64,000 bases of DNA. Source: Amycolatopsis sp. NBC_01480. Lineage in GTDB: Bacteria > Actinomycetota > Actinomycetes > Mycobacteriales > Pseudonocardiaceae. The DNA is taken from positions 5,580,001-5,644,000 of the forward strand of contig NZ_CP109442.1 in NCBI RefSeq assembly GCF_036227205.1, written 5' to 3'. This document shows positions 33,080-52,639 of the stretch, in pieces (position 1 is the first letter of the stretch; each line of letters opens with the position of its first letter). The notes under the pieces were generated by a model. The model had not been told where the DNA came from. It saw only the letters and a program-made list of their open reading frames with translations, and ran no database searches. The translations under genes were made by a program, and so were the position numbers.

Positions 33080-34120
33080 GTGGTGGACGATCCCGCGATG
33101 TGCTCGACGCATCTGGTCGAGCTGGTGGCCAGGCTGTCACCCAAGGCAGTCCTGCTGTACAAGTTCGCGGTGGAAGACCCTTTCTGGACGCGGCTGGAAG
33201 CCCAGCGCCGGCTGGGCGTCGGCGAGGCGGAGCTCGATGAACTCGTCACCACGCTGGCGGAGTTGCTGCTGCTGCGCCCTTCACGGGATTCCAGTCGCGA
33301 GTTCGACGCGGTCGGCCCCGGTACCGCCACTGCTGAGCTGCTGAACGCCGAAGAGAACGAGATCCGCCGACGGCAGGCAGTTCACCGGCAGGTCAAACGG
33401 GAGCTGCTCGCGCTGCAGCCCACCTACTTCGAAGCCCGCCAGGCACGCAGAAGCGCTGAGGCGATCGATGTGGTCGACGACGTGGCGGTGGTCCGGCAGT
33501 TGCTCGCCGACGAGGCCCAGCGATGCGGGCGGGAGCTGCACATCGCGCACCCGGGCGGCGGGATGGACCCGGACGGCCTGGACCGTAGTCTCCAGCTGGA
33601 CATGATGATGTTGGAGCGCGGTGTGGTCATGCGCTCGGTGCTGCAGCACTCCACCCGCCTGCATCCGCCGACGCAGCAGTACGTGGCCGCGGTGACCAAG
33701 GCCGGCGCGCTGGTCCGGACCACGTCGATCGTGCCGCGCCGGATCATCGTCTTCGACCGGGAGGTGGCGTTCCTGCCGCCCGAGGACGGCGACCCTGCGG
33801 GCGGCGCCGTGGTGGTCCGGGAGCCGGCCGTGGTCAGCCACCTGCTGGAGAGCTTCGATCTGCTCTGGCACGTCGGGCACCGGTTTCCGCTCCTGCCCGA
33901 GAGCGGGGCCGACGACGGCACCGGGGCGGCGGAGCGGGAGCTGACCGGGGCGATCCTGCTGCAGATGGCGGCCGGGGTGAAGGACGAGGTCATCGCGCGC
34001 CGGCTGGGTATTTCGGTGCGGACCTGCCGCCGGCACATCGCCGACATCTCGACGAGCCTCGGTGCGCAGAGCCGGTTCCAGGCGGGCGTGCTCGCGAAGC
34101 AGCGCGGCCTGGTCGACTGA
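33080..34120 (+). CDS. LuxR-type cluster regulator with N-terminal TrmB-like wHTH
   Basis: The 346-residue protein has an N-terminal winged-helix-like region (HLVELVARLSPKAVLLYKFA, then RLGVGEAELDELVTTLAELL), a middle sensor segment with LQLDMMMLERGVVMRSVLQH and VRTTSIVPRRIIVFDREVAF, and a C-terminal LuxR HTH (ILLQMAAGVKDEVIARRLGI then SVRTCRRHIADISTSLGA). This architecture is common among pathway-specific regulators in actinomycete clusters. GTG 33080 is preferred because GGGGAGAAGGG lies just upstream; an in-frame ATG at 33038 lacks one. It lies first in the cluster on the same strand and is likely its activator. A smaller relative lies at 62410-63093. Confidence 0.82.
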   Translation: MVDDPAMCSTHLVELVARLSPKAVLLYKFAVEDPFWTRLEAQRRLGVGEAELDELVTTLAELLLLRPSRDSSREFDAVGPGTATAELLNAEENEIRRRQAVHRQVKRELLALQPTYFEARQARRSAEAIDVVDDVAVVRQLLADEAQRCGRELHIAHPGGGMDPDGLDRSLQLDMMMLERGVVMRSVLQHSTRLHPPTQQYVAAVTKAGALVRTTSIVPRRIIVFDREVAFLPPEDGDPAGGAVVVREPAVVSHLLESFDLLWHVGHRFPLLPESGADDGTGAAERELTGAILLQMAAGVKDEVIARRLGISVRTCRRHIADISTSLGAQSRFQAGVLAKQRGLVD

Positions 34121-34288
34121 CGACGAGACCTTCGGTGGGTTACGTCGAGCGGAACGGCTTCCGCCGTAACTTCCTGCAGGACCACTTGTTGCGTCGGTTC
34201 GACGCCGTCCGGCCCGTGATCGCGGTGCTAGATTTCCGCTGAGCACAACGACTATTGCCGGCCGAAGATCGGACTGAAAGGCAAAGAA

Positions 34289-35389: not shown

Positions 35390-35403
35390 GACGGAGCGGT
35401 GAA

Positions 35404-36702
35404 ATGAATCCCGAAGTCAGCGGACCGGCCGGCCCGCGGCGGGCGGTCGTGCTGTGCAAGTGGCAGCCTGTGCTCGCCGGGGAACTGCTCGGACGGGTGC
35501 GCGTGCACGTCGTCCTGGACGCCTTCGACGTGGCGCACGCCGACATCGACGAAGGGCTTCTCGCGCTGGCCGCGTCGGTCCACACGGTGAGCACGTTTAA
35601 CGCGCTCGAAGAACTCGCCACCGTGGCCGTGTCGATCCGGCTCCAGGACCCAGAAGTCGGCCGGGTGGTGAGCTTCACCGAGTTCTCCCAGCTCGGCGCG
35701 GCGTACCTGGAAGAGGTCTTGGGGCTCGGTGCCACGGTTCCCGCCTCGGTGGCGACGCGTGACAAGCGGCTGATGAAGCAGGTGCTCGCGGAGGCCGGCG
35801 TGCCCACCGCCTCCTTCACCTCGCTGCCCGATCCTTCCGACGACGCCGCGGTGGTATTGATGGCCGGTCGTCTGGACTACCCGGTCGTGGTGAAGCCGGC
35901 GGCCGGTTTCGGGACGATGAGCACGTACTTCGCCCAGGACGCGGAGGGGTTCCTCGAGGTCTGCCGCTCGTTCCGCTACGAACCGGCGCTGTCCTCCAGG
36001 CAGCTCACGGTCGAGTCCTTCATCGACGGTGAAGAACTCCATGTGGACGCCTACTGGGGAAGTGGAGGACCGCACTTCCTGTTCGTCTCCCGCTACTTCG
36101 CGCCCCGTCTGGCCGTCCAACGTGGAGAGTGCGCGCAGGACGGCGGCGAGCTGCTTTCCCGCGAGGCGCACCCGGCGCTGTACGACGAGCTGGAGCTGTT
36201 CACGCGGCGCGTCGTGGACGGGCTCGGGGTCACCGGGACGATGCTCCACCTGGAGGTGTTCCGGCAGGCCGACGGCGGGATCGTGTTCTCCGAGATCGCC
36301 ACCCGGACCGGTGGCGGCTGGATCCCCGGGCTCGTCGGGCAGGCGCTGGGCCGCAGCATCTGGTCGGTCGTGGCCGATCTGGTGGTCGACGGCCAGACCG
36401 CCGCGCCCCGGCCGGTCGCCCCCTGCCTCGGCGTTGTCCACTTGCGACCGGACGCGCCCGGCCGCATCGTGGAGATCCCCACCGCGGAAGAAGTCCTCTC
36501 CGTGCCCGGGGTGTTCGAGGCGCACGTACTGCAGAAGCGCTCGGACGTGCTGTGGATGCAGCACCCCTCGGAGTGGGTGGTGTTCGCCTTCATCGGCGCC
36601 GAGACCGCGGACGAGCTGGCTGCCCTCGGCAAGGAGATCCCCGCGCTGTTCCCGATCCGCACCGTTCCCGTGGCGCCGGAAGAGCCGGGCCCGACCGGAT
36701 GA
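35404..36702 (+). CDS. ATP-grasp ligase 1
   Basis: The 432-residue protein has the ATP-grasp fold. An N-terminal Rossmann-like domain is followed by the phosphate-loop strand YPVVVKPAAGFGTMSTYFAQ, the hinge TVESFIDGEELHVDAYW and the metal-binding IVFSEIATRTGGGWIPG (Glu). It resembles carboxylate-amine ligases that form peptide bonds via acyl phosphates (as in dapdiamide or bacilysin pathways). ATG 35404 has GGAG upstream and is chosen over a far-upstream in-frame ATG that would overlap the cupin gene. Its stop overlaps the start of ATP-grasp 2. Substrates unknown. Confidence 0.85.
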   Translation: MNPEVSGPAGPRRAVVLCKWQPVLAGELLGRVRVHVVLDAFDVAHADIDEGLLALAASVHTVSTFNALEELATVAVSIRLQDPEVGRVVSFTEFSQLGAAYLEEVLGLGATVPASVATRDKRLMKQVLAEAGVPTASFTSLPDPSDDAAVVLMAGRLDYPVVVKPAAGFGTMSTYFAQDAEGFLEVCRSFRYEPALSSRQLTVESFIDGEELHVDAYWGSGGPHFLFVSRYFAPRLAVQRGECAQDGGELLSREAHPALYDELELFTRRVVDGLGVTGTMLHLEVFRQADGGIVFSEIATRTGGGWIPGLVGQALGRSIWSVVADLVVDGQTAAPRPVAPCLGVVHLRPDAPGRIVEIPTAEEVLSVPGVFEAHVLQKRSDVLWMQHPSEWVVFAFIGAETADELAALGKEIPALFPIRTVPVAPEEPGPTG

Positions 36703-37955
36703 CCGGGGTTCCCGGGCCCGTCGCGCTGCTGCTCTCCGCCAAGCTCGCCGGTGGGGTGGTCATGCTCAGCGCGGCGTTGCGACGGCGTGGATGGCGGGCC
36801 GTGCTGGTGTCGGAGCTGGCGGACGACCCGAATGCCGCAGCGTGCGACGGCCACGTCGTGGTGGCGTGGGACAGCGCGGATAAAACCGTCGCCGCGGCGG
36901 TGGAACGCGCCGGCGTACGCCCCGCCGCGGTCGTGAACATGGTCGAATCCCTCAGCGCCCGCCGCGCCGCACTCCTGGGTCACTTCGGCCTGGCGGATCC
37001 GAGCCCCGGCCTCGTTTCGCTGCTGGACAAAGCCGCGGTCCGGAGCGCCGCCGACGCGGCCGGAGTCTTTCCGGTGTGGTGGACGGCGGGCTCGCTCCGG
37101 GTGCTCGCGGAGACCGGGCCGGGCCGGTACCCGGTGGTGCTCAAACCGGCCACGGAGAGCGGGGCCTCCCGCGATGTGCACCTCCTGCGTTCCGCGGAGG
37201 AGTGGGAGCGCACCGTGGCCGGTCTACTGGCGGGGCACGCCGAGGACCTCTTCGTCGTCGAGGAGTTCCTGGACGGCGAAGAGTTCTCGATCGACGGTTA
37301 CGTCATCGCGGGGAGATTCGAGCCCGTGTTCGTGGCCGACAAACCCGACCACGACACGGTGCGGCTGCGTGATCGGGGCCTGCGGATGTCGCCCCCGCTG
37401 CGGATCCCGGCCGAGACCGTAGCCGGCTTCGTGGCGGATCTGCAGGTCCTGGTGAGCGGGCTGGGGCTCGACTCGGCGTGGCTGCACGTCGAGGGCCGGC
37501 TCGGTGCCGGCGGTCGGGCCGGACTGATCGAGGTCAATCCCCGGCCGGGCGGTGGCCTGTACCCCTCGGCCATCCGCCACCGGACGGGGGTGGACCCGAT
37601 CGAGCTCTCGCTCAGCCTGGCCCTCGGCACTGCGCTTCCCGTTGCGGCCTCCGGACACGACGACGCGCTGGCGATCGTCCCACTGGACGCGGAGGCGCTC
37701 GGGGTGGTCGATTGCCGTACCACCGCCGCCGAGTTGAGGCGCCTTCCCGGCGTCGTCGACGCCTACGTGATCGACGGCTACCGGGTGTCCACCCTGGACA
37801 AGGAGAATTTCTTCGCCGCCGTGATGGTGACCGGCCGCGACGAGCGGCAGCTGCGCGAACGGGCTTCCGGGGCACTGGCGATCATGGACTACCGGGTGTC
37901 CCGTGGCCCGTTTTCGCCGGATTTGCCGGGAAACCCGGCTCGGCCGCCGCGGTGA
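36699..37955 (+). CDS. ATP-grasp ligase 2
   Basis: The 418-residue protein shows YPVVLKPATESGASRDVHLL (phosphate loop), LFVVEEFLDGEEFSIDGYVI (hinge) and GLIEVNPRPGGGLYPS (metal-binding Glu and Asn), with a C-terminal subdomain. It is clearly related to, but different from, ATP-grasp 1. The ATG lies within the previous stop (ATGA), so the two are translationally coupled. It is likely a second amide-forming ligase in the same pathway. Confidence 0.85.
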   Translation: MTGVPGPVALLLSAKLAGGVVMLSAALRRRGWRAVLVSELADDPNAAACDGHVVVAWDSADKTVAAAVERAGVRPAAVVNMVESLSARRAALLGHFGLADPSPGLVSLLDKAAVRSAADAAGVFPVWWTAGSLRVLAETGPGRYPVVLKPATESGASRDVHLLRSAEEWERTVAGLLAGHAEDLFVVEEFLDGEEFSIDGYVIAGRFEPVFVADKPDHDTVRLRDRGLRMSPPLRIPAETVAGFVADLQVLVSGLGLDSAWLHVEGRLGAGGRAGLIEVNPRPGGGLYPSAIRHRTGVDPIELSLSLALGTALPVAASGHDDALAIVPLDAEALGVVDCRTTAAELRRLPGVVDAYVIDGYRVSTLDKENFFAAVMVTGRDERQLRERASGALAIMDYRVSRGPFSPDLPGNPARPPR

Positions 37956-38063
37956 ACTTATGGCCATGCAACTTGCTGCGCCGGGGAAACCCCCGATCGC
38001 GGCCCCGGATTCGCCAGAATGACGAGTGTCCACCAGGACATGGACGATGAGGAGCAGGCAATC

Positions 38064-38252
38064 ATGCGGAGAGTTTTCACGGCGGGCGTCATCGCCGCCG
38101 CGTTCTGTGTCAGCGTGGCTATCGCCCAGGGGGCCGTCGCGTTCGCCGCGACCGCCACCGCGGCTGCCGCTCCCGAGCACGGCCGGTCGACCGTGGCGCC
38201 CGACCACGACGGCGGCGGCACCGACTGGAGCGTCGTGCTCGGCGGCCATTGA
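38064..38252 (+). CDS. 62-residue small protein with signal-like N-terminus (possible precursor peptide)
   Basis: ATG 38064 has GAGGAG 9 nt upstream, which decides the start over two in-frame upstream ATGs. The protein starts MRRVFTAGVIAAAFCVSV, continues hydrophobic to about residue 28 and has an AFA-like cleavage site. The remaining 34 residues or so are polar and Ala-rich and end DWSVVLGGH. It sits 109 nt after ATP-grasp 2 and 31 nt before ATP-grasp 3. It could be a small exported protein. Alternatively its C-terminus could be a ribosomal peptide substrate for an ATP-grasp ligase, as PGM1 uses in pheganomycin biosynthesis. I favour neither strongly. Confidence 0.6.
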   Translation: MRRVFTAGVIAAAFCVSVAIAQGAVAFAATATAAAAPEHGRSTVAPDHDGGGTDWSVVLGGH

Positions 38253-38283
38253 CGGAAATCGTAGTAGGAGGCGGAGCGTCGCT

Positions 38284-39570: not shown

Positions 39571-39715
39571 AGCTTCACCCGGTCGCCGGCCGGAGTGAAA
39601 TGAAGTAATTCCCCTTCCTGGGGTCAGAACAATTCTTCCTGATATCACCGCGTTCCCCCGTACATTCCGGGTGGGTGCGCGAACCCGTGCTGCGCCGAAC
39701 AGATGGAGGCTCTCC

Positions 39716-40732
39716 ATGACCACGCTCACCAATTCCCCGGCTACGCGTTCCCGGGTAGATTCCCGCCGGCGCTACCTGGCCATTCTGGACGACCCGATGT
39801 ACACCTGCCTGGTCGGTCTGCAGGACCTGGTCAGCTACGAAACCGCCCGGTTCTGGCGGGAACGGCAGGTCCGCGCACTCCACCTGCCCGTGACCACCGG
39901 CTCGATCTCGTCTCCGATGGGTCTGGGCAGCGATTCGCTCCCCGTGCAGGTCGACCTGTTCGGCGTGCCGACCTATCTCGCCGATTCCATGCAGTTCATG
40001 CTCGAATACGGTTGCCGGCTCGCGCCGGACGGCTGTTACTACCTGATGCCGAGTTTCCGCGGAGAAAAGGCGGACAGCACGCATCTCAGCCAGTTCTTCC
40101 ACAGTGAAGCCGAGATCCCGGGTGAGCTGGACGACGTCATCACCGTGGCCGACGCCTACGTCCGGTACCTGGCGGCCGCGGTGCTGGAGCACCTCACCGA
40201 CGAGGTGGCCGGAGTCGCCGGGGGAGTGGCCCACCTCGAAGCGTTCCTGGCCTCGGCCACCGCCCGGATGACCTTCGACGAAGCGGTGGCGGCGCTCGAG
40301 GGCCAGGCCGGTTGCTTCGAGGTGCACGACCAGTGGCGGACGATCACACGACGGGGCGAGGAGAAGCTCATCGAGCAGTACGGCCCCGGCGTGTGGCTGA
40401 GTCACTACGACCGGCTCTCGGTGCCGTTCTACCAGGCCGTCGACGAAACGGGCGCCAAGGCTCTCAACGCCGACCTCTTGCTCGGGCCCGGTGAAGTGAT
40501 CGGCTGCGGTGAGAGGCACACCACGGCGGACGACGTGCGCGCGGCCCTGCACGGACACGGCGTCGCCGAGCACGACTACCAGTGGTACGTGGACCTGAAA
40601 GCCCGCCGTCCCCTGCCCACCAGCGGGTTCGGGATGGGCGTCGAACGCTTCCTGATGTGGGTGCTCCGGCGGTCCGACATCCGCGAGCTACAGCTGGTGG
40701 AACGTTACAACGGCGAGGTCACCGTGCCCTGA
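39716..40732 (+). CDS. AsnRS/AsnA-like class II synthetase core
   Basis: The 338-residue protein has class IIb synthetase sequence: TTGSISSPMGLGSDSLPVQV, TYLADSMQFMLEYGC, YYLMPSFRGEKADSTHLSQF (motif 2-like Arg and Glu) and SGFGMGVERFLMWVLRRSDI (motif 3, GxGxERF). The N-terminal OB-fold anticodon-binding domain of AsnRS/AspRS is absent, as in AsnA-like asparagine synthetases of archaea. It should activate a carboxylate as an adenylate and pass it to an amine or ammonia rather than aminoacylate tRNA (inference). ATG 39716 has GGAGG upstream. It follows a 145-nt gap that may hold a second promoter. Confidence 0.8.
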   Translation: MTTLTNSPATRSRVDSRRRYLAILDDPMYTCLVGLQDLVSYETARFWRERQVRALHLPVTTGSISSPMGLGSDSLPVQVDLFGVPTYLADSMQFMLEYGCRLAPDGCYYLMPSFRGEKADSTHLSQFFHSEAEIPGELDDVITVADAYVRYLAAAVLEHLTDEVAGVAGGVAHLEAFLASATARMTFDEAVAALEGQAGCFEVHDQWRTITRRGEEKLIEQYGPGVWLSHYDRLSVPFYQAVDETGAKALNADLLLGPGEVIGCGERHTTADDVRAALHGHGVAEHDYQWYVDLKARRPLPTSGFGMGVERFLMWVLRRSDIRELQLVERYNGEVTVP

Positions 40733-40784
40733 GTCGCCCGGTTTCGCGGGTCTGGCCGGGTTTCGACTGTTCGGGAGGTAAACG

Positions 40785-41225
40785 ATGTTGTTCGGCGGCG
40801 AAAAGGCCGGCGCGATGATGTCCACGTTGGACACCCTCGGGTTCGAGCGGTTGCTCGCCCTGCCCGCGGTCCCCGCCGGCAACCCCCGGCGGATGCGTTA
40901 CCCGGTGACCGTGAGCACCAGCGTCGACGACGGGCAGTGGTACGTCCGCTCCTTCGGCACGGACTTCGACCTCGTCGACCCGACCCGGCGCGGCACGCTC
41001 GGACGCTGGTACTCGCTGGGCTGGGGCGTGGTCGACGACCTGCAGGTCGCCGAGCTGCTGATGGTGCACGCCGGCGAGGCCGGCCCGGACGTCCTGCCGG
41101 TGCTGGACACCGAGCTCGAGCACCACGGCGTGACCCGAGCCGAGCGCAGTGTCCGGCCGGGCCGCTGGGGCACTGAGCTGCGCATCTCCGCGGTGTTCGA
41201 CCGAATGCCCGAGGGGTGGTGCTGA
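40785..41225 (+). CDS. Unknown 146-residue protein
   Basis: I do not recognise this protein. ATG 40785 has GGGAGG at 6 nt. It contains VTVSTSVDDGQWYVRSFGTD, RWYSLGWGVVDDLQVAELLM and WGTELRISAVFDRMPEGWC, with several Trp and Tyr residues and no signal peptide or membrane segment. It lies between the AsnRS-like and ProRS-like genes and ends 6 nt before the latter, so it may be a partner subunit of one of these enzymes. Confidence 0.6.
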   Translation: MLFGGEKAGAMMSTLDTLGFERLLALPAVPAGNPRRMRYPVTVSTSVDDGQWYVRSFGTDFDLVDPTRRGTLGRWYSLGWGVVDDLQVAELLMVHAGEAGPDVLPVLDTELEHHGVTRAERSVRPGRWGTELRISAVFDRMPEGWC

Positions 41226-41231
41226 GCCGGC

Positions 41232-42479: not shown

Positions 42480-44056
42480 TGGCGGAATCCGTGTTCGTCT
42501 CGACGGCCATCCCGTACGTCAACGCGCGTCCGCACCTCGGCCACGCGTTCGAGTTCGTGCAGGCCGACACCGCCGCCCGGCACCTGGCCCGGCAGGGCAA
42601 GCAGGTGTTCCTCTCCAGCGGGACCGACGAGAACAGCCTCAAGAACGTCCTGTCCGCGCAGAAGACCGGTGAGTCGACCGCCTGCCTGGTGGAGCGTCAT
42701 GCCGGGGACTTCGTCCGGTTGATGAGCGAGCTGGGTGTGGTCGTCGACCGGTTCGTGCGGACGAGCGTCGACGCCGACCACCGGCTGGGCGCCGCCGCGC
42801 TGTGGCAGCGGATGGCCGACCGCGGTGACATCTACTCGCGCCACTACGAAGGGCTGTACTGCGTCGGCTGCGAAGAGTTCCGGACGCCGTCCGAGCTCGC
42901 CGGCGGGCGCTGCGCGGTGCACCGGACCGAACCCACCGTGGTGCGGGAGCGCAACTACTTCTTCCGGCTCTCGAAGTACCAGGACGCGATCGTCGCCGCG
43001 CTGAGCACCGGTGAGCTGCGGATCTGGCCGCAGTCCCGGTGCAACGAGATGCTCGGACTGGCCCGGGGCGGGCTGACCGACATCAGCATTTCCCGCTCGG
43101 TCGAGCGCGCGCACGGCTGGGGGATCCCCGTACCGGGGGACGACAGCCAGGTGATGTATGTGTGGATCGACGCGCTCACCAACTACGTCAACGCGCTGGG
43201 CTGGGTCCGGGACAGCGACGACTACGACCGGTACTGGCGTGACGCGGAACAGCGGATCCACGTGATCGGCAAGGACGTCACCCGGTTCCACGCCGTCTAC
43301 TGGCCCGCGATGCTGATGTCCGCCGGCCTGCCGCTGCCGACCGACGTGGTCGTGCACGGCCACGTGACGCTGTCGGGGCAGAAACTGAGCAAGTCGCTGG
43401 GCCACGTGATCGACCCGGTGGAGCTGATCGGCAGGTACAGCGCGGAAGCGACCCGGTTGTTCATGCTCGCCGAGTTCTCGCCTTGGGCCGACGTCGACTT
43501 CACCGACCAGCGGCTCGTCGCGCGGTACAACTCCGACCTCGCAAACGGCCTGGGCAACCTCGTCGAGCGGGTGGCGGGCATGACCCACCGGTACCGCGCC
43601 GGGATCGTGCCCGAAGCCGGACCGCGTGGAACGGCGAAACATTCGCTGCTGCACAACGCCGTCGCGGCCGCCGCAGCGTGCCGGACGGCGCTCGACCGGT
43701 TCGACTACCGCGAGGCGGTGGCCCGGATCTGGGACCTGGTGCGCGGGGCGAACCGGTACCTCGACCGGCTTGTGCCCTGGGAGCTGGCCGCCGCGGAAGA
43801 GCGCGGCGACGGCCACGCCGCCGAGACCCTGGACGGTGCTCTGCACGACCTCGTCGCGACCCTGCGCACGATCGCGCTGCTGCTGGGGCCGGTGCTTCCC
43901 GAGACCGCCGCGAAGGTGCTCGACGTCCTCGGCGTGCACGTCGCGGACACGAGGGAAGACGGTTTCAGCGCTCTCGACGGCTGGTCACCCGGCATCGCCG
44001 GGGCGAAGATCGCCCGCTCCCCGCACCTGTTCCCCCGTCTGGAGCTGACCTGGTGA
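42479..44056 (+). CDS. Methionyl-tRNA synthetase paralogue
   Basis: The 525-residue protein is a complete class I MetRS. IPYVNARPHLGHAFEFVQAD contains the HIGH motif (HLGH, residues 19-22). SSGTDENSLKN and YCVGCEEF with CAVH (zinc knuckle) follow, then WIDALTNYVNALG, GKDVTRFHAVYWPAMLM and SGQKLSKSLGHVIDP (KMSKS motif, residues 302-306). The alpha-helical anticodon domain starts NSDLANGLGNLVERV. Because everything needed to charge tRNA-Met seems present, it is best explained as a resistant housekeeping substitute (self-resistance), although a biosynthetic use cannot be excluded. ATG 42479 overlaps the previous stop (TGATG). Confidence 0.88.
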   Translation: MAESVFVSTAIPYVNARPHLGHAFEFVQADTAARHLARQGKQVFLSSGTDENSLKNVLSAQKTGESTACLVERHAGDFVRLMSELGVVVDRFVRTSVDADHRLGAAALWQRMADRGDIYSRHYEGLYCVGCEEFRTPSELAGGRCAVHRTEPTVVRERNYFFRLSKYQDAIVAALSTGELRIWPQSRCNEMLGLARGGLTDISISRSVERAHGWGIPVPGDDSQVMYVWIDALTNYVNALGWVRDSDDYDRYWRDAEQRIHVIGKDVTRFHAVYWPAMLMSAGLPLPTDVVVHGHVTLSGQKLSKSLGHVIDPVELIGRYSAEATRLFMLAEFSPWADVDFTDQRLVARYNSDLANGLGNLVERVAGMTHRYRAGIVPEAGPRGTAKHSLLHNAVAAAAACRTALDRFDYREAVARIWDLVRGANRYLDRLVPWELAAAEERGDGHAAETLDGALHDLVATLRTIALLLGPVLPETAAKVLDVLGVHVADTREDGFSALDGWSPGIAGAKIARSPHLFPRLELTW

Positions 44057-45090
44057 ACCGCCGAGGACTGCGGCTGCCGCAGGAGATCACGCCCGGAACC
44101 GCGGTGGGCATCTGGACACCGTCCGCGCCGGCGCCGTCGCTGTTCCCCCGTCGTTTCGAGCGGGCGCTGAAGGCACTCGAGGCCGAAGGTTTTCCCGTGG
44201 TGCTCGCCGATTCGGCGACCGGAAACGCCGGGATCGGGGCGGCCGCTCCGGCCGTGCTCGCCGCCGACCTGCACGCGCTGCTCGCCGAACCGCGGGTCGG
44301 GGCGGTGCTGTGCGCGACCGGCGGGTACACGTCGTCGGCCGTACTGGCGCGGATCGACTGGGCGCTGGTGCGGGAGGCGGCGATCCCGATCATCGGGTAC
44401 AGCGACATCACCGCCGTGTTGTGGGCGGTGATGTCCCAGGCCGGGCTGGTCTCCTTCCACGGACCGATGCCGGTCTCCGAGTGGGGCGAGTGGGGCGGTC
44501 CATGGGCCTACACACTGGAGAACCTCCGCCGTGCGCTGCACCCCGGAGCCGAGCCCGTTCCGTTGCCCGAGCCCGGCTGCTGGACCGACGAAACCCTGTG
44601 GTGGGACAAGGAAGACACCCGACGCAGGAAGACCCGGACCGGCGGCTGGCGCTGCCTGGTGCCGGGCCAGGCCGAAGGATGGCTGCTCCCCGGCTGCGCG
44701 GCCACCGCGACGCACCTGTTCGGCACGCCCTACCTGCCCGACGTCGACGGTGCCCTGCTCTGCCTGGAGTTCGCGGGCATGGGACCGGACCAGGTGTGGG
44801 CGCACCTGGTGCAGTGGGCGGACAGCGGCCTGCTCGGCCGGGTCGCCGGGCTGGTCGTCGGCCGTCACGCCGGACCGAAACCCGCGGCCGGCGGCTCACT
44901 CGACTTCGACGCCGTCGTCCTCGACGTCGTCGGAGACCGCGGGTTCCCGGTGCTGGCCGACGTCGACTTCGGCCACACCGAACCCATGCTCACGCTCCCG
45001 GTCGGCTGCCACGCCCTGCTGGACGCGACGGCTCGTGAACTGACCCTGCTCGAACCCGCCACCACCCCCGCTACGAGGAGAACGCCATGA
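44053..45090 (+). CDS. MccF-like S66 serine peptidase
   Basis: The 345-residue protein belongs to the LD-carboxypeptidase/MccF family. Catalytic Ser117 lies in IIGYSDITAVLWAV, Glu239 in ALLCLEFAGMG and His308 in DVDFGHTEPMLTLPVGCHAL, close in position to the Ser-Glu-His triad of MccF, which detoxifies microcin C by cutting the bond between peptide and nucleotide. A Trp-rich loop (W177, W183, W184) lies where MccF contacts the nucleotide. No signal peptide is seen, so it acts in the cytoplasm, like MccF and unlike cell-wall LD-carboxypeptidases. GTG 44053 overlaps the MetRS stop (GTGA). It is a likely immunity enzyme or a final processing peptidase. Confidence 0.85.
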   Translation: MNRRGLRLPQEITPGTAVGIWTPSAPAPSLFPRRFERALKALEAEGFPVVLADSATGNAGIGAAAPAVLAADLHALLAEPRVGAVLCATGGYTSSAVLARIDWALVREAAIPIIGYSDITAVLWAVMSQAGLVSFHGPMPVSEWGEWGGPWAYTLENLRRALHPGAEPVPLPEPGCWTDETLWWDKEDTRRRKTRTGGWRCLVPGQAEGWLLPGCAATATHLFGTPYLPDVDGALLCLEFAGMGPDQVWAHLVQWADSGLLGRVAGLVVGRHAGPKPAAGGSLDFDAVVLDVVGDRGFPVLADVDFGHTEPMLTLPVGCHALLDATARELTLLEPATTPATRRTP

Positions 45091-46133
45091 CCGGCGCGCA
45101 TTTCACCGACGACGACGACCAGCTCGTCGTCCACTTCGAGCAGAAGCTGTGTGTCCGCTGCGTGCTGCCGGAGAACTTCCCCGGCTCCGATTTCGACGCC
45201 GACGGCGTCTGCGAGTACTGCTGCACCGAGGTCGAGCGGGTGGACACCTCGCGCGGCGAAGTCGACCAAGCGCTCGCGGAAGGCCTCGCCAGGACGGCCG
45301 GGGTCGCCGACTACGACTGCGTGCTGCTCTTCAGCGGCGGCAAGGACAGCTCGCTCTCGCTGATCCAGCTGGTCGAGGAGCACGGCCTCCGGGTGCTCGC
45401 GATGACGCTGGACAACGGGTTCCTGTCGCAGGTCACCGCGGCGAACATGAGCGCGGTCCTCGACAGCGTCGGCGCCGACCACATCGTGGTGCGTCCGCAG
45501 AAGCGCGTCATGCACGGCGTCTACCGCAGCGCGCTGACCAGCTCGTTCGGTCCGGAGACGGTGAAGTACTCGACCGCGGCGTGCGGCTCGTGCATTGGGA
45601 TGGTCTTCGCCGCGGGCATGCGTACCGCGGCCTCCTACGGCGTCCCGCTGCTGGCCGGTGGCTGGACTCCCGGGCAGCTCACGACGTCGGCCTTCGTGCC
45701 GGCGAGCTTCCTGCGCGAGGTCATCGACCGCAACCTCGACCCGGTGCGCGCGACGACCCCGGCGCTCAACGACGACCTCGACGCCTGGACCCGCGACTCG
45801 GGCGAGTTGCCGACCGGGCTGGTCAACCCGCTCTACGCGACCGGCTACACCGAAGCCGGGGCGTTGAAGATCCTCGAGAAGCACGGCTGGCACGCGCCGC
45901 GCGACACGGACTCGTGCTCGACGAACTGCCGGCTCAACGGGCTGCTGATCGTCGACCACATCAAGAAGTTCGGCTACCACCCCTACGTCTACGAGATGGC
46001 ACACCACGTGCGCATCGGGGCGATGTCCCGCGACGAAGCCCTGTCGAAGCTGCGCAACGTCAACCTGAAGAGCTCGGCGGTCGGCGCTGTCGCCGTCGAA
46101 CTCGGCATCCCTTCGCCGCTGCACGTCCGCTGA
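45087..46133 (+). CDS. PP-loop amidotransferase (N-acetyl-sugar amidotransferase-like)
   Basis: The 348-residue protein has the zinc-binding start CVRCVLPENFPGSDFDADGV (Cys22, Cys25) with CEYC (Cys42, Cys45), then the PP-loop SGGKDSS at residues 83-89, and later ACGSCIGMVF and DSCSTNCRLNG with more Cys pairs. The combination matches the WbpG/PseA family, which adenylates an amide oxygen and replaces it with ammonia to form an amidine in bacterial glycans. No glutaminase partner and no sugar genes are near, so here it probably modifies an amide of the natural product or activates a carboxylate (inference). ATG 45087 overlaps the preceding stop. Confidence 0.8.
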   Translation: MTGAHFTDDDDQLVVHFEQKLCVRCVLPENFPGSDFDADGVCEYCCTEVERVDTSRGEVDQALAEGLARTAGVADYDCVLLFSGGKDSSLSLIQLVEEHGLRVLAMTLDNGFLSQVTAANMSAVLDSVGADHIVVRPQKRVMHGVYRSALTSSFGPETVKYSTAACGSCIGMVFAAGMRTAASYGVPLLAGGWTPGQLTTSAFVPASFLREVIDRNLDPVRATTPALNDDLDAWTRDSGELPTGLVNPLYATGYTEAGALKILEKHGWHAPRDTDSCSTNCRLNGLLIVDHIKKFGYHPYVYEMAHHVRIGAMSRDEALSKLRNVNLKSSAVGAVAVELGIPSPLHVR

Positions 46134-46165
46134 CCCGTTCAACCAACCACCAGGAAAGGCCCTTC

Positions 46166-47035
46166 ATGGTCACCGCAACCATCGCCGCTGCCGAGGCGCT
46201 CGACGGGCTCTCCGTCGCCGACATCGCCAAGCTGGACTTCTCCCGCGTCGTCGGGCTCACCAACGAACCGAACATGCCCTCCGGCGGCGGCGAGACCGTG
46301 CGCCGGGTGCTGCAGCTCGCACACCCGCGTCCGGGCCGGCCGGTGCTGGAGGTCGGCAGCAACACCGGGTACACGAGCATCGAGATGGCCAGCTGGCTCG
46401 ACGCCCCGGTCACCGGCCTCGACTACAACCCGGTGTCCAACGCCTTTGCCACGCACAAGGCGCAGCGGACCGGGATCGACAACGTCACCTTCGTGCTGGG
46501 CGACGGCCAGGGGATGCCGTTCGAGGACAACACGTTCGACCTGGTCTTCTGCAGCAACGTCACCTCGTTCATGGCCGATCACGCCAAGGCGATCGACGAG
46601 TACTACCGCGTCCTGGCTCCCCTCGGGGTGCTCGCCGCGGTGCCGATCTACTACCGCTCCGCCCCGCCGGAGCCGCTGCGCTCGGCCGTCGAAGAGGCCA
46701 TCGCCGCTCCCCTCAAGGTCACCGACAAGGACTACTGGGTGGACATGTTCTCCCGGGAGGGCGTCAGCCTGGTCGAGGACGAGCCGTACGAGTACGTTCG
46801 TCAGAGCGGCGAGCGGATCGCCGAGTACGTCGAGACCGTGACGCGCCAGCCCCACCTCGAACTCCAGCCCGCCGAGAAGGTCGCCGCGCTGCGCGAGCGG
46901 CTGGCGCACTTCTACGAGCTGTTCGACGAGAACCTGTCATACTGCGGCTACTCGATCATGCTGTTCCGCCCCGGGCACCCCAACCCCGAGCCCGTCCTGC
47001 ACGCCACCCGGCCCGCGCGGACGACGTCGCTGTGA
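46166..47035 (+). CDS. SAM-dependent methyltransferase
   Basis: The 289-residue class I methyltransferase has motif I PVLEVGSNTGYTSIEMASWL (residues 60-79), the acidic residue in VTGLDYNPVSNA, GDGQGMPFEDNTFDLVFCSN (motif II region) and YYRVLAPLGVLAAVPIYY. The C-terminal 80 residues are helical. It probably methylates O, N or C of an intermediate. ATG 46166 has AGGAAAGG upstream, and its stop overlaps the aminotransferase start (GTGA). Confidence 0.87.
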   Translation: MVTATIAAAEALDGLSVADIAKLDFSRVVGLTNEPNMPSGGGETVRRVLQLAHPRPGRPVLEVGSNTGYTSIEMASWLDAPVTGLDYNPVSNAFATHKAQRTGIDNVTFVLGDGQGMPFEDNTFDLVFCSNVTSFMADHAKAIDEYYRVLAPLGVLAAVPIYYRSAPPEPLRSAVEEAIAAPLKVTDKDYWVDMFSREGVSLVEDEPYEYVRQSGERIAEYVETVTRQPHLELQPAEKVAALRERLAHFYELFDENLSYCGYSIMLFRPGHPNPEPVLHATRPARTTSL

Positions 47036-48294
47036 CGGCCGCCGAAGTGCGCAGTCCGTTGCGTGCCTTGACGGACGACGACGTCCGGCCCAACCGGCTG
47101 CAGGACGTCGCTTGGCTCCGTGAGTACCTCGCGGCCGGGGCCCGGGCGGGGGAGCCGATCCTGCTCAGCCTCGGCGAGACCTGGGCGAGCACGCCCGAAC
47201 CGCTGGCCGCGGCCTTACGACAGGTGCCGGATGGTTCCCACGGGTACCAGATCTCGATGTACGGGCTCCCGCAGCTGCGCAAGGTGCTCAAGGAGTATGT
47301 GGCCGACACCCAGCGGCTGCCCCGTACCGCGGCGTGGGAGCTGGCCGTGAGCTGGACGGGGACCCGCAGCGCGATGCGGGACTTCGCCACCACACTGGAG
47401 CGTGGCACGGTCCTCGCCGTCGCGCCGGCTTGGGACTACAGCGGCGTGTTCGAGCCGCTGGGCTTCCGGAGCGCCTACGTCCCGTTCGACCCGGCCGAGC
47501 GATCGGGACCGAGCCCCGAAGCCGCCCGTGCGGCCGCCGCCGCGGTCCCCGGCGATCTCGCGATGGTCGTCCTCAACGCCCAGCACAACCCGACCGGCGC
47601 GAACTGGTCGCCGGCGCTGGTCGAGACGCTGATCGAGATCGCCCTCGAACGTGGAGCGGCGATCCTCGTCGACGACGCCTACTTCGGCGTCTGCGAGACC
47701 GACCCCCGGCCGACGTCGGTGCTGGAGATCCTGCTGACGCGGCTGGCCGGGGAACACTCCCCGGTGCCGTGGCTGGGAGTGCGCTCGCTGGGAAAGCAGT
47801 TCCACTGCAACGGCTGGGCGCTGGGCGCGGTCATCGCCGAGCCCGGGCGGCTCGACGACCTGGTGAACGACATCCGGCCTCAGCACACCTTCAACTACGG
47901 CATCCATCTCCAGTGGGCGATGGCCCGGTGGCTGGCGGACCGCCCCGCGGTGGAGCAGTACCTGGTTCGCGAGCGCGCGGGGACCGCGGAGAAGCGTGCC
48001 GCCGTCCTGGGCTGGCTGCCGGCCGGGATCCGGGAGCGGGTGATCGCCGGTCCGGCGGCACCGTACGTGCTCTACCCGGTACTGGAGGGCACCGACGTCA
48101 CCGCCTACCTGCGCCGGGCGGTGCTCGAATGCGGGGTCGTGCTTTCGGACGCGTGGCCGTTGGCGCGCGTCGGGCCGACGGCGTCCACGGGCTACGTGCG
48201 GATGTACCTCGGTCCGGCTCTGGACGAGCTCACGACGGCACGGGACCGCTTGGCCGCGGCGGGTCTGTGGCCGGAGGAGAGCCGGGGTGAGTGA
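47032..48294 (+). CDS. PLP-dependent class I/II aminotransferase
   Basis: The 420-residue fold-type I enzyme shows VVLNAQHNPTGANWSPALVE (NPTG), AAILVDDAYFGVCETDPRP (PLP-binding Asp and Tyr), and the Schiff-base lysine (K255) in VRSLGKQFHCNGWALGAVIA. The C-terminal Arg region is in RMYLGPALDE. It converts a keto acid to an amino acid or the reverse, and is likely involved in making a non-protein amino acid building block. GTG 47032 lies inside the previous stop. Confidence 0.87.
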   Translation: MTAAEVRSPLRALTDDDVRPNRLQDVAWLREYLAAGARAGEPILLSLGETWASTPEPLAAALRQVPDGSHGYQISMYGLPQLRKVLKEYVADTQRLPRTAAWELAVSWTGTRSAMRDFATTLERGTVLAVAPAWDYSGVFEPLGFRSAYVPFDPAERSGPSPEAARAAAAAVPGDLAMVVLNAQHNPTGANWSPALVETLIEIALERGAAILVDDAYFGVCETDPRPTSVLEILLTRLAGEHSPVPWLGVRSLGKQFHCNGWALGAVIAEPGRLDDLVNDIRPQHTFNYGIHLQWAMARWLADRPAVEQYLVRERAGTAEKRAAVLGWLPAGIRERVIAGPAAPYVLYPVLEGTDVTAYLRRAVLECGVVLSDAWPLARVGPTASTGYVRMYLGPALDELTTARDRLAAAGLWPEESRGE

Positions 48295-49522
48295 GACCGC
48301 GGCGGCCTCGCCCGCGAAGGTCCGGTTCCGCGGCCACCGGGCCCTGCTCACCGCGCTGGTCGTGGACGGCGTCGGATCCGGGCTGTTCCTCCCGTTCGCG
48401 GTGCTGTACTTCCTCCACACCACGACGATTCCCCTCGCTTCGGTGGGCGCCGCCCTGACCGCGGGCAACCTGCTCGCGGTGCCGACCCCGCTGCTCGCGG
48501 GCCCGCTGATCGACCGGTTCGGCCCGCGAGCGCTCACCATCGCCGGGAACCTGCTCAGCGCCGTGGCCTTCGCCGGCTACCTGGTCGTCGGTTCGTCGTG
48601 GCAGCTGGCGGTGACGGCGCTGGTCGCCGGCGTCGGCCGGATCACGAGTTCGACCGCGCTGGTCTGCCTGATCAGGGTGCTGGCCGCGCCCGGCGAGCGG
48701 CCGCAGTGGTTCGCGGTGCAGAGCGTGGCGCGCAACGCGGGCTACGGGCTCGGCGGGATCGCGGGCGCGGTGGCCGTCTCGGCCGACGGCCCCTGGGCCT
48801 ACCCGTTGCTCGCGGCGGTCAACGCGGCCAGCTACCTGATCGTCGCCGGCGTTCTCGCGTGGCGACGGTTCGACACCTCCGCCGGGGAACAGGCCCAGCC
48901 GGACCCGGATCCGGCCGGGAAGCCCGCCGGCTACCTCGAGGTACTCGGGGATCGGCGGCTGCTCGTCGTCGTCGGGGTCAACGTCCTGCTGGTCGTCTGC
49001 ATGAGCGTTCTGTCGGTCCTGGTGACGGTCTACCTGGTCGACGTCCTCGGCCGGCCGGCCTGGGTGGGCGGCGCCCTGTTCACGCTGAACACGGTCATCG
49101 TGGTGCTAGGCCAAACCGCGGTCACGCGCCGGGTCGACGGCTTCCGGAAGCCACGGATCGTGCAGGGGGCCGCGGCCGCGTGGGCGGTCGCCTTCCTGTG
49201 CCTGTGGCTGCTGAATGCGGCGCCGGGCTGGGTCGTGCTGCCCGGAGCGACGCTGGCCGTCTGCGCCTGCACCCTCGCGGAGATGCTGTACGCGCCCACG
49301 ATCAACGCCTTGGCCGTGGACGCCGCGCCCCGCACGGGGTCGGGCCGCTACCTGGCGGTCTACCAGTTGTCGTGGGGCCTGAGCACGGCGATCGCGCCCG
49401 GGCTGCTGATCTGGCTGCTCGCCCAGGGCGGGCAGTGGCCGTGGCCTGTGCTGCTGGTGCTGTGTGCCCTCGCCGCCGCGGCGATCGGCCTGCTGCTGAA
49501 GAACCGTTCTGTCACAAATTAG
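48287..49522 (+). CDS. MFS exporter 1
   Basis: This 411-residue membrane protein has about 12 hydrophobic segments. LLAGPLIDRFGPRALTIAGN fits motif A (GxLxDRxGxR), and FAVQSVARNAGYGLGGIAGA lies in helix 4-5. The GTG overlaps the aminotransferase stop by 8 nt. It probably exports the cluster product, and a second pump follows the amidinotransferase. Confidence 0.83.
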   Translation: MSETAAASPAKVRFRGHRALLTALVVDGVGSGLFLPFAVLYFLHTTTIPLASVGAALTAGNLLAVPTPLLAGPLIDRFGPRALTIAGNLLSAVAFAGYLVVGSSWQLAVTALVAGVGRITSSTALVCLIRVLAAPGERPQWFAVQSVARNAGYGLGGIAGAVAVSADGPWAYPLLAAVNAASYLIVAGVLAWRRFDTSAGEQAQPDPDPAGKPAGYLEVLGDRRLLVVVGVNVLLVVCMSVLSVLVTVYLVDVLGRPAWVGGALFTLNTVIVVLGQTAVTRRVDGFRKPRIVQGAAAAWAVAFLCLWLLNAAPGWVVLPGATLAVCACTLAEMLYAPTINALAVDAAPRTGSGRYLAVYQLSWGLSTAIAPGLLIWLLAQGGQWPWPVLLVLCALAAAAIGLLLKNRSVTN

Positions 49523-49535
49523 AAAGCATGAGGAA

Positions 49536-50660
49536 ATGACGATCACGACCGAGCAGGCCGCTGCCTCGGAGTCCCGCCCGGCCGCCGCCGGGATCAGCGG
49601 ACCGGTGCGGTCTCCCGACGAGTTCTCCCCGCTGCGGGAGGTCGTCGTCGGGCGGGCGCGCGGTGCGTTCATCCCGAGTCCGCGGGACATTTCGGCGTGG
49701 CTCGCCCTCTACAGCCATCTCGGCGCGGCACAGGTCGCGGAGATCCAGGGCGGCGCTCTGCCCGCGCAGGTCGTGGCGGATACCGAAGAGGACCTTGAGA
49801 CGCTCGTCGGGACTCTGCGCGGCCTCGGCGTGGTCGTCCACCGTCCGGCCGAAGTCGACCACACGCGGCCGTTTTCCACTCCGCACTGGGAATCGCCTTC
49901 GGGGATGTACTCCTACTGCCCGCGCGACCTCACCCTGATCGTCGGCGACACGATCATCGAGACACCGAGCTCGGTGCGGGCGCGCTACCACGAACTCGAC
50001 GGGCTGCGCGAGCTGTTCCAGCGGTACCTGCGCGCGGGTTCGCCGTGGATTTCGGCACCGAAGCCGCAATTGCGGGACGAGCTCTACGAAATCGGCGTCG
50101 ACGGCCTGCCCGCGCTCGGCGAGCAGGAGCCCGCGTTCGAAGCGGCGAACGTGCTGCGGTGCGGCCTCGATCTGTTCTACCAGGTCAGTTCCAGCGGCAA
50201 CGAGTTCGGCCGGATCTGGCTGGAGTCCGTGCTGGCTCCGCGCGGCTACCGCGTGCACCCGGTCCGCGACGTGTATCCCTTCACCCACCTCGACAGCACC
50301 ATCTCACTGATCCGGCCGGGCCTGGTGCTGCTGAACCCGGAGCGGGTCACCGAGCACACCATCCCGAGCGCGCTGCGCGGGTGGGACCGTATCTGGTGTC
50401 CGGCCATGCGTGAGCTTCGTACGCACTCGACGGCCCACCCGCTGAGTTCCCCGTGGCTGGGGATGAACCTGCTGATGGTGAGCCCCGAACTGGCGATCGT
50501 CGATGCCGCTCAGCCCGACCTGATCGCCGCGTTGGAGCAGCGGGGAGTCGGCGTGTTGCCGCACACGCTGCGGCACGGCCAGGCGCTGGGTGGCGGGTTC
50601 CACTGCGTCACGCTGGACACCATCCGCGACGCTCCCTCCGGCGTGGACTATTTCGCGTGA
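49536..50660 (+). CDS. Amidinotransferase
   Basis: The 374-residue protein belongs to the glycine/inosamine amidinotransferase family (AGAT, StrB). It starts SPDEFSPLREVVVGRARGAF, typical of the family, and has PSGMYSYCPRDLTLIVGDTI, AANVLRCGLDLFYQVSSSGN (Asp), PFTHLDSTISLIRPGLVLLN (catalytic His and Asp) and GGGFHCVTLD with the nucleophile Cys357. It transfers the amidino group of arginine onto a primary amine, forming a guanidine. ATG 49536 follows GAGGA. Its substrate is probably an amine of the pathway, giving a guanidino group in the product. The stop overlaps the next start. Confidence 0.87.
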   Translation: MTITTEQAAASESRPAAAGISGPVRSPDEFSPLREVVVGRARGAFIPSPRDISAWLALYSHLGAAQVAEIQGGALPAQVVADTEEDLETLVGTLRGLGVVVHRPAEVDHTRPFSTPHWESPSGMYSYCPRDLTLIVGDTIIETPSSVRARYHELDGLRELFQRYLRAGSPWISAPKPQLRDELYEIGVDGLPALGEQEPAFEAANVLRCGLDLFYQVSSSGNEFGRIWLESVLAPRGYRVHPVRDVYPFTHLDSTISLIRPGLVLLNPERVTEHTIPSALRGWDRIWCPAMRELRTHSTAHPLSSPWLGMNLLMVSPELAIVDAAQPDLIAALEQRGVGVLPHTLRHGQALGGGFHCVTLDTIRDAPSGVDYFA

Positions 50661-52030
50661 GCCAGGAGGGACGTCTGCCGTCGCGGCGAGGTGCCCCAGA
50701 GGATTCTCGCCGGCGTTCGGTGACGGTGGCCGTCCTCCTTCTGGTGACGCTCATGGGTTTCGAGTCCATGGGTGTGGCCTCGGCGATGCCGACGCTGGTC
50801 ACCGACCTCCACGGCACCGCGCTCTACGCTTGGCCGTTCCTCACGTTCCCGGCCGCCGGTGTGGTCGCGGTGGTGTGGTCGGGCCGGTGGTGCGACGGCG
50901 CCGGGCCGCGGCCGGCGTTGATCGCCGGGCCCCTGCTGTTCGTCGCGGGGCTGCTGCTCGCCGGGGCCGCCCGGTCGATGGCGGTCCTGCTCGCCGCGCG
51001 GGTCCTGCAGGGGCTGGCCGACGGGGTGCTGATCGTCCCGATCTACGTCGTGGTCGGGCTCCTCTATCCCGAACGGGACCGGCCGTCGATGTTCGGCGCG
51101 CTGTCCACGGCGTGGGTGGTGCCCTCACTCGTCGGACCGGCGCTGGCCGGCTGGTTCACCGAGCACCTGTCGTGGCGGTGGGTGTTCTTCGCGATCGTGC
51201 CGTTCGCCGTGCTGGGCTGGCTGATGCTCGTGCCGGTCCTGCGCACCCTGCCGCCGCACACAGCGCCGGTGTCCGCCTCCCGCCGGACGCCGCTTTGGGC
51301 GGCGCTCGCCGGCGCGGGAGCGCTCTTGCTGATCAGCTGGGCGGCCCAGCTCCGCTCGGCCGCGGCGTTCCTCCCGGCGGAGATCGGGCTCGTCGTGCTC
51401 ACGGGATCGGTGCGCACCTTGCTGCCTCCCGGCGCCTTACGGGCCCGGCGCGGCCTCCCGGTCACCGTTCTCGCACGCGGGTTGCTGACCGGCACGTTCT
51501 TCGCCACGGAGGCGTTCGTCCCGCTGACGTTGAGCACGGTGCACGGCTACTCGGTGACGGCGTCCGGCCTGCCTCTCACCGTGGGCGCGCTCGGCTGGGC
51601 CGGGGCGTCGATGTGGCAGTCGCGCAGGTCCGGGATTCGCCGGGAAACGCTGGTGTGGCTCGGTTTCCTGCTCAGCTGCGCCGGTATCGGGAGCATGGCG
51701 CTCATCGCTCCGGCCTGGGGACCGGCGTGGCTGACGGCCGCGCTCTGGACGGTGGCCGGAGCCGGCACCGGATTGGCGACGAGCAGCCTCAGCGTGCTTA
51801 CCCTGTCCGCCTCGACCGACGCCGACCGGGGCTTCAACTCCTCGGCAATCCAGGTCAGCGACATGCTCGGTTCGGTGCTGCTCGCGGGCTTGGGCGGGGC
51901 ACTGGTCGCCAGGCTGGCGCCCCCGGCCGGCGTCGTCGTGCTGGACCTGCTCATGGCCGCCTTGGCCCTGGCCGGTGCCGCGATCACGGGAAACCGTTGC
52001 GAAACAGCGGCTTCCGTGAGTCTCGAGTAG
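50657..52030 (+). CDS. MFS exporter 2
   Basis: The 457-residue membrane protein has about 14 hydrophobic segments. VTVAVLLLVTLMGFESMGVA begins helix 1, and AARVLQGLADGVLIVPIYVV with LSTAWVVPSLVGPALAGWFT (motif C of drug:proton antiporters) follows. GTG 50657 overlaps the amidinotransferase stop (GTGA). It closes the cluster, and about 300 nt downstream an IS3 remnant marks the border. Confidence 0.83.
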   Translation: MSQEGRLPSRRGAPEDSRRRSVTVAVLLLVTLMGFESMGVASAMPTLVTDLHGTALYAWPFLTFPAAGVVAVVWSGRWCDGAGPRPALIAGPLLFVAGLLLAGAARSMAVLLAARVLQGLADGVLIVPIYVVVGLLYPERDRPSMFGALSTAWVVPSLVGPALAGWFTEHLSWRWVFFAIVPFAVLGWLMLVPVLRTLPPHTAPVSASRRTPLWAALAGAGALLLISWAAQLRSAAAFLPAEIGLVVLTGSVRTLLPPGALRARRGLPVTVLARGLLTGTFFATEAFVPLTLSTVHGYSVTASGLPLTVGALGWAGASMWQSRRSGIRRETLVWLGFLLSCAGIGSMALIAPAWGPAWLTAALWTVAGAGTGLATSSLSVLTLSASTDADRGFNSSAIQVSDMLGSVLLAGLGGALVARLAPPAGVVVLDLLMAALALAGAAITGNRCETAASVSLE

Positions 52031-52620: not shown

Positions 52621-52639
52621 GCCCACTGTCGATGACGCT

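Follow-up and report, generated by a model that had tools for sequence, protein, structure and literature searches.

A probable agrocin 84-type nucleotide antibiotic cluster with a second methionyl-tRNA synthetase in Amycolatopsis sp. NBC_01480

This study provided evidence that a run of 16 genes in Amycolatopsis sp. NBC_01480 probably encodes a nucleotide antibiotic of the agrocin 84 type, the target of which would be methionyl-tRNA synthetase (MetRS; synthetases for other amino acids are abbreviated likewise). The whole stretch analysed, called the window here, comprises 64,000 nucleotides (nt) at 5.58-5.644 Mb on contig 1 of a 10.1 Mb genome, and the cluster occupies positions 33038 to 52030 on its forward strand, as delimited by the listing of open reading frames (ORFs), codon-position GC and profile scans. 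A first-pass annotation of this DNA had described about 16 same-strand genes running from a regulator to a second exporter as a single biosynthetic cluster free of nonribosomal peptide synthetases; the layout was confirmed and the interpretation as one such cluster is supported. The same annotation knew of no characterised pathway with this gene set, a claim that is not supported, since the core is shared with the agrocin 84 genes.

Agrocin 84, a 'Trojan horse' antibiotic, has so far reportedly been a single curiosity of Agrobacterium, and we know of no natural nucleotide inhibitor of MetRS. This cluster places the agrocin 84 core in actinomycetes and pairs it with another synthetase. What appears to be new is the change of synthetase, the addition of a ligase block and the evidence of synthetase exchange among clusters carrying AgnA, as neither a survey of AgnA homologues, nor a MetRS-type agrocin, nor AgnA enzymology was found among the matches listed from the open-access literature; this novelty is provisional because subscription journals are largely missing from the literature searched.

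Homologues of agrocin 84 genes in the window

When the ProRS-like protein of the window was compared with plasmid records by tblastn, five plasmids were matched, all of them from agrobacteria or rhizobia: four records that are each 44,420 bases long (pAgK84, CP000632.1, in which the gene is agnC1, and three equal in length) and pAtCFBP5877c. All 16 window proteins were compared with 18 pAgK84 proteins (of 35 annotated) and 11 of pAtCFBP5877c by blastp at E 0.01, and four of them gave long matches to the agn plasmids, namely to AgnA, AgnC1, AgnC5/MccF and Arad_15003. The AsnRS-like protein matched pAgK84 AgnA at 41.7% over 319 amino acids (aa; E 1e-79), and only class II core families were matched in Pfam, so that it has no anticodon-binding domain. 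According to the available text of PMC4392301, agnA encodes a truncated AsnRS homologue. The ProRS-like protein matched AgnC1 at 27% over 402 aa (E 3e-19 to 7e-19), the peptidase matched AgnC5/MccF at 36% (E 6e-50), and the methyltransferase matched Arad_15003 at 36% over 254 aa (E 3e-56). In addition, the 146-aa protein matched the ORF that precedes agnC1 in pAtCFBP5877c (28% over 99 columns, E 2e-7 in a one-sequence comparison) in the same gene order, and this small ORF is also present, though unannotated, in pAgK84.

The window MetRS and AgnB2 shared two short local matches, as expected of two class I synthetases. AgnB2 is a second, resistant LeuRS that has been shown by experiment to protect the agrocin 84 producer (available text of PMC5059758). 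pAgK84 is matched in six parts, by sequence for AgnA, AgnC1, AgnC5, Arad_15003 and the small ORF, and by a second full-length synthetase in the role of AgnB2; therefore, the window carries the agrocin core with LeuRS exchanged for MetRS. An AgnA core, AgnC1 with the small ORF, MccF with the methyltransferase, and a second synthetase, by which we recognise an AgnA cluster, are all found in the window, while an agrocin 84 cluster in the strict sense would hold LeuRS where the window has MetRS. The window also differs by its additional ATP-grasp, PP-loop, pyridoxal phosphate (PLP), 366-aa and amidinotransferase proteins.

The genes are as follows; profile matches were judged against the Pfam and NCBIfam cut-offs, with PDB sequence matches and Foldseek as complements.

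33038..34120 (likelier start 33083), +, LuxR/GerE-type regulator; PF00196 25.8 bits
34289..35389, +, 366-aa conserved protein; kept in the block of four relatives
35404..36702, +, ATP-grasp ligase 1; PF13535 48.9 bits, 4wd3 E 1.5e-24
36699..37955, +, ATP-grasp ligase 2; PF13535 57.2 bits
38284..39570 (GTG 38284, our reading), +, ATP-grasp ligase 3; NCBIfam BacD 49.6 bits, below cut-off
39716..40732, +, AgnA homologue, class II D/K/N synthetase core without anticodon-binding domain; 41.7% to pAgK84 AgnA
40785..41225, +, 146-aa partner of AgnC1; 28% to the small ORF before agnC1
41232..42479, +, AgnC1 homologue, ProRS-derived; 27% over 402 aa
42479..44056, +, full-length second MetRS; TIGR00398 418 bits, PF19303 anticodon domain
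44053..45090, +, MccF-type S66 peptidase (AgnC5 homologue); 36% to AgnC5, 3tyx E 1.6e-47
45087..46133, +, WbuX-like PP-loop protein; TIGR03573 114 bits, cut-off 203
46166..47035, +, class I S-adenosylmethionine-dependent methyltransferase, Arad_15003 homologue; 36% over 254 aa
47032..48294, +, PLP enzyme, class I/II; 8kdk (CcbF) E 2e-34
48287..49522, +, major facilitator superfamily (MFS) exporter 1; PF07690 120.8 bits
49536..50660, +, StrB1-type amidinotransferase, accessory; 1bwd E 1.5e-91
50657..52030, +, MFS exporter 2, accessory; PF07690 118 bits

The close spacing noted earlier was found at 12 of the 15 junctions, which overlap or span at most 52 nt; the three longer gaps follow the regulator (168 nt) and lie before (about 328 nt) and after (145 nt) ATP-grasp 3. 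The regulator ORF opens at 33038, with GTG 33083 as the likelier start. The functions named in the first-pass annotation agree with the profile scans, with the amidinotransferase identified through 1bwd.

Concerning the individual proteins, the only profile matched by the window AgnC1 was TIGR00408 (28.8 bits, E 5.8e-7, cut-off 437). A model of the AgnC1 homologue built from nine sequences reached a predicted local distance difference test score (pLDDT) of 83.5, and all 50 Foldseek hits listed of 598 in the PDB (E 0.001) were ProRS, with root-mean-square deviations (rmsd) of 6.0-7.6; the best was 1nj1 (E 5e-24, TMq 0.74, rmsd 6.6). By our reading of the alignment, 11 of 12 AgnC1 rows have Lys at the motif 3 position, which we take to be that of the expected ProRS Arg. 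Ten members of the small 146-aa protein family were found by profile. The window MccF can be aligned over its length with MccF structures, 3tyx among them (E 1.6e-47), and its GYSD, LE and HT segments presumably hold the catalytic triad.

The AgnA homologue might instead be an amide-forming ligase only, similar to asparagine synthetase A, giving a peptide amide or pseudopeptide without a nucleotide, with the MetRS conferring resistance to a methionine analogue. The best NCBIfam models of the window AgnA are indeed those of asparagine synthetase A, both below cut-off (251 of 322 and 191 of 389 bits), and the cluster contains several possible amide-forming enzymes. However, the closest characterised relative found is agnA of agrocin 84, and MccF relatives lie beside AgnA in 65 of 84 AgnA loci, which comprise 80 loci from the scan described below, pAgK84, pAtCFBP5877c, locus L180 and the window (61 of the 80 scanned loci). 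MccF acts on acyl-nucleotides. We consider the amide-ligase explanation unlikely, though it is the most credible of the alternatives weighed here. The plain pseudopeptide proposed in the first-pass annotation gives way to a nucleotide conjugate as the likelier product, because AgnA and MccF are both present.

Conservation of the block and the two MetRS types

The AgnA relatives were the best 80 of 116 obtained by scanning genome contigs with an AgnA alignment, and more DNA was fetched around the related blocks. Conservation outside this genome, the test set by the first-pass annotation itself, was found in two Catenulispora species, Streptomyces sp. 8L and Streptantibioticus silvisoli. The blocks of Catenulispora pinistramenti and C. 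pinisilvae hold 12 of the 16 window genes (366-aa protein, ATP-grasps 1 and 2, AgnA, small protein, AgnC1, MetRS, MccF, PP-loop protein, methyltransferase, PLP enzyme and MFS 1), with identities to the window of 76% for AgnA and 62% for both AgnC1 and MetRS. Streptomyces sp. 8L has 11 of the 16, the Catenulispora set minus MetRS, on a 15,293-base contig, so that the block may be truncated, and S. silvisoli has 13, made up of 11 of the 12 in Catenulispora, the amidinotransferase (77%) and, beside it, MFS 2. Among these four relatives, the matches were 69-71% for ATP-grasp 1, 64-71% for ATP-grasp 2 and 49-54% for MFS 1; the 366-aa protein has 68-75% identity to four other alignment rows, and MFS 2 has a 60% match in L181.

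The regulator was unmatched in the examined DNA of the four related blocks, and ATP-grasp 3 was unmatched in the related-block DNA (L028-L030, L180-L184). The shared block therefore contains two ATP-grasps, not three: the two that exceed the Pfam cut-off stand as first described, while the third is weak (PF02222 24.1 bits against 27; best NCBIfam model BacD, 49.6 bits, far below cut-off) and lies outside the block. Six of the nine genomes searched lacked any match to the amidinotransferase (L028, L029, L030, L031, L036 and L060), including both Catenulispora and Streptomyces 8L; matches of 38-39% occurred in the L033 and L056 genomes, and the close one was confined to S. silvisoli. A guanidino group as a common feature of the product, as proposed earlier, is weakened accordingly.

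No other full-length match to AgnC1 was found in 397 order-level and 396 phylum-level genomes (two draws that overlap and both contain the window genome), where partial matches in 21 and 16 genomes, respectively, covered at most about one third of the protein, and none was found in the 13 same-genus genomes listed.

The window MetRS scores 418 bits with TIGR00398 (cut-off 336), and its best NCBIfam model is PRK12267 (488 bits, cut-off 598); the anticodon domain (PF19303) and HIGH/KLSKS-type motifs are retained. Another MetRS of a different type is encoded at about 1.986-1.988 Mb of contig 1 in the same genome. Searching the window MetRS against eight genomes revealed a cluster-linked MetRS together with a second MetRS elsewhere in six (the window genome, the two Catenulispora, S. 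silvisoli, S. ferralitis and Plantactinospora). Three of the six cluster enzymes were scanned (window, Plantactinospora and S. ferralitis), and all matched PRK12267 best, over cut-off only in S. ferralitis. In the tree, for which the program issued a long-branch warning that was not confined to these groups, all six cluster enzymes fall inside one ten-row group (support 100/100), the other rows being two Streptomyces enzymes, a second Plantactinospora copy and L051. The second MetRS was scanned in five of the six genomes (window, C. pinistramenti, S. silvisoli, S. ferralitis and Plantactinospora) and matched PRK00133 best, below cut-off; the sixth, from C. pinisilvae, groups with that of its sister species in the tree. 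In Streptomyces sp. 8L, the sole full-length match is a PRK12267-type MetRS, over cut-off. A third MetRS of Plantactinospora, close to the cluster type (G782:C219 147992-149527, 55% to the window copy), lies on a contig different from that of the AgnA locus (L060).

MetRS is a pursued drug target, and two forms of it differ in inhibitor sensitivity (available text of PMC7916415); these forms would correspond to the PRK00133 and PRK12267 types. The six related cases suggest that the product hits the PRK00133-type MetRS and spares the PRK12267 type. MetRS as the target, already proposed in the first-pass annotation, is supported as probable.

Alternatively, the MetRS could be biosynthetic, charging tRNA for a tRNA-dependent peptide ligase or taking part in a cupin/MetRS hydrazine-forming system like Spb40, which is a cupin-MetRS fusion (available text of PMC11429834). 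The cluster does combine a MetRS with a possible cupin, as the 366-aa protein has a cupin-like HSH motif in our reading, and a flavin adenine dinucleotide (FAD)-dependent oxidoreductase at 27156-28988 (+), 4 kb upstream, has a marginal Lys_Orn_oxgnase match (21.9 bits, cut-off 21.3). However, unlike in Spb40, the 366-aa protein and the MetRS are separate genes and the MetRS is complete with its anticodon domain and motifs; moreover, the 366-aa protein is present in Streptomyces 8L, where the cluster lacks a MetRS, profile scans of the 16 genes detected neither a tRNA-dependent ligase nor an N-hydroxylase, and at least four genes with unrelated Pfam matches separate the FAD gene from the cluster. 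A biosynthetic MetRS is very improbable on these grounds, and its hydrazine-synthetase version was likewise set aside.

AgnA loci beyond this cluster

Across the 84 AgnA loci, methyltransferases were found by profile in 62 and together with MccF in 56, although the iterated profile may have drawn in general methyltransferases; in 29 loci, the methyltransferase is adjacent and on the same strand. A synthetase-like ORF is present in 45 of the 84 at E 1e-6 and in 35 under a strict cut (at least 100 bits and 40% of the E. coli reference), corresponding to 31 of the 80 scanned loci (1.46 Mb), where Met, Leu, Thr, Pro, Glu, Phe, Gly, Cys and Asn enzymes occur. These counts include near-duplicate loci (L026/L027; L028/L029; L096/L099/L102/L103). 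When 20 neighbour synthetases were scanned with NCBIfam, 15 exceeded the cut-off (two HisRS, one CysRS, three GluRS, three ProRS, one GlyRS, one ThrRS, one PheRS and three MetRS), including the HisRS of L052 and L073, which are below the strict cut and yet over the NCBIfam cut-off; the other five fell short of it, namely a HisRS (L037), a LysRS-like protein (L077), a ThrRS (L032) and short ProRS-derived proteins at L031 and L035. Against E. coli LeuRS, the five LeuRS neighbours score 603-875 bits.

Such neighbours could be due to chance or housekeeping, and the resemblance to agn could be a loose set of common enzyme families. PheS/PheT, AsnRS and GluRS neighbours in small genomes could be the sole copy, second copies having been checked for MetRS in six genomes. 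In the 10.1 Mb of the window genome, three Pfam synthetase families have 21 matches, of which this cluster contributes two; the expected rate was derived from the density in this one genome rather than from matched random loci, and small genomes would give more. On the other side, this density predicts about 3 ORFs per 1.46 Mb against the 31 loci observed, and the lack of other full-length AgnC1 matches in the genome draws described above also speaks against coincidence. We regard coincidence as the least probable of the explanations considered.

The AgnC1 family (E below 1e-10) occurs in 12 of the 84 loci, where the neighbour is MetRS in six, LeuRS in four and not found in two; a 13th match (L032, E 3.7e-6) was left out of this count. 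It is the AgnC1 profile family alone that goes with Leu and Met clusters, as a different ProRS-derived protein lies beside AgnA in seven loci (L031, L035, L074, L075, L086, L106 and L107). When eight non-AgnC1 ProRS-derived ORFs were compared, the set as such was only weakly related to AgnC1 (hhalign 87%), and that of L071 was hardly related.

The AgnA tree, made by a quick method from 85 rows including two outgroup rows and leaving out the degraded L180, places the window in an eight-row group (Shimodaira-Hasegawa-like approximate likelihood ratio test, 100) whose neighbours are MetRS in three, ThrRS in two, GluRS in one and none in two. Because this group has mixed neighbours, the synthetase partner changes among near AgnA relatives. 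Based on these data, AgnA may mark a phylum-spanning, hitherto unrecognised class of nucleotide antibiotics in which one coupling enzyme serves targets swapped among many synthetases and the target can be read from the resistant cluster copy, the window being the MetRS branch, aimed at the PRK00133 type and protected by the PRK12267 type; we judge this generalisation to be evenly balanced between right and wrong. More such clusters are suggested by the scan, in which synthetases for Met, Leu, Thr, Pro, Glu, Phe, Gly, His and Cys lie beside AgnA. Should the synthetase of a cluster reveal what its product targets, AgnA clusters would form a genome-readable catalogue of synthetase inhibitors and their resistance genes.

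Several neighbours stand apart. L088 (476-1981) and L094 (4985-6670), from Photobacterium and Vibrio, have MetRS-like proteins near AgnA that lack the HIGH motif and whose KMSKS region is altered; both loci are within the strict 31 (L088 also through an ordinary MetRS), and no MetRS target was drawn from them. In Humibacillus, L044 (5628-8849, -) has a GlyRS formed by a glyQ-glyS fusion beside AgnA, over cut-off. The L096 neighbour was considered as MshC and, on checking, is a CysRS.

Proposed pathway and remaining genes

From homology, gene neighbourhood, conservation and the MetRS types, we infer the chemical steps, their order, the carrier and the target as follows. A methionine-like acyl group would first be made as a carboxylate or carboxamide, for which the PP-loop, PLP, methyltransferase and 366-aa proteins are candidates. 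AgnA, a synthetase core freed from tRNA binding, might then couple it to an adenine nucleotide with the help of AgnC1 and the small protein, giving an acyl-phosphoramidate, a stable copy of aminoacyl-AMP with a P-N bond. Two ATP-grasp ligases could add amino acids or a guanidino group as an uptake carrier, to which ATP-grasp 3 and the amidinotransferase would be local additions, and the MFS pumps would export the product. In a sensitive cell, the carrier would be trimmed and the mimic would block MetRS there, while the producer would be protected by its second MetRS and by MccF, the latter cutting the acyl-nucleotide bond. The many AgnA homologues make the question of P-N bond formation testable.

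Several points weigh against this pathway. The product, its chemistry and its target are predictions from the genes. Blastp (E 0.01) matched none of the 16 window proteins to the agnC2, C3, C4, C6, C7, D1, D3, E1, E2, F and G proteins, and the nucleoside part and its modifications are therefore without assigned window genes; conversely, the comparison with pAgK84 and pAtCFBP5877c gave no agn match to the PP-loop, PLP, ATP-grasp and 366-aa proteins. In S. silvisoli, whose block is otherwise the most complete, AgnA is degraded (L180, about 8650-9620); the same genome has an intact AgnA elsewhere, at L078, together with AgnC1 and the small protein and with no synthetase within 21 kb. Streptomyces 8L carries the pathway without a cluster MetRS, and the S. 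ferralitis MetRS may not be a dedicated copy, because it groups with ordinary Streptomyces MetRS in the tree.

Among other known systems, microcin C carries a peptide on an acyl-nucleotide and shares the MccF-type immunity peptidase; it differs in that no ThiF/MccB match was found in profile scans of the 16 window genes and no precursor peptide was shown, and nucleotide coupling in the window would be performed by the AgnA homologue. Ketomemicin- and pheganomycin-type clusters combine ATP-grasp ligases with an amidinotransferase, as the window does, but the window amidinotransferase is an accessory to a core made up of AgnA, AgnC1, MetRS and MccF.

Concerning the remaining enzymes, the nearest solved relative of ATP-grasp 1 is an L-amino acid ligase (4wd3). 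Locus L033, which is of the GluRS type, also has the WbuX-like PP-loop protein. Neither Pfam nor NCBIfam gave a match for the amidinotransferase, which was named from its PDB sequence match to 1bwd. Assignment of the PLP enzyme as GntC (enduracididine) was rejected, with NF041364 at 88 bits against a cut-off of 415 and CcbF as the nearest solved relative. The 366-aa protein was unmatched in Pfam, NCBIfam and the PDB, and a structural reading of it was dropped at a predicted fold pLDDT of 35.

The 366-aa protein (34289-35389), the 146-aa protein (40785-41225) and a 77-aa ORF (38019-38252, +) had not been described in the first-pass annotation. The last lies between ATP-grasps 2 and 3 and has a signal-like N-terminus; it was rejected as a precursor peptide, its best match among the compared loci being E 0.56. 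Just downstream of the cluster, 52273-52644 (-) holds an integrase core fragment (rve_2, 31 bits), a possible remnant of a mobile element.

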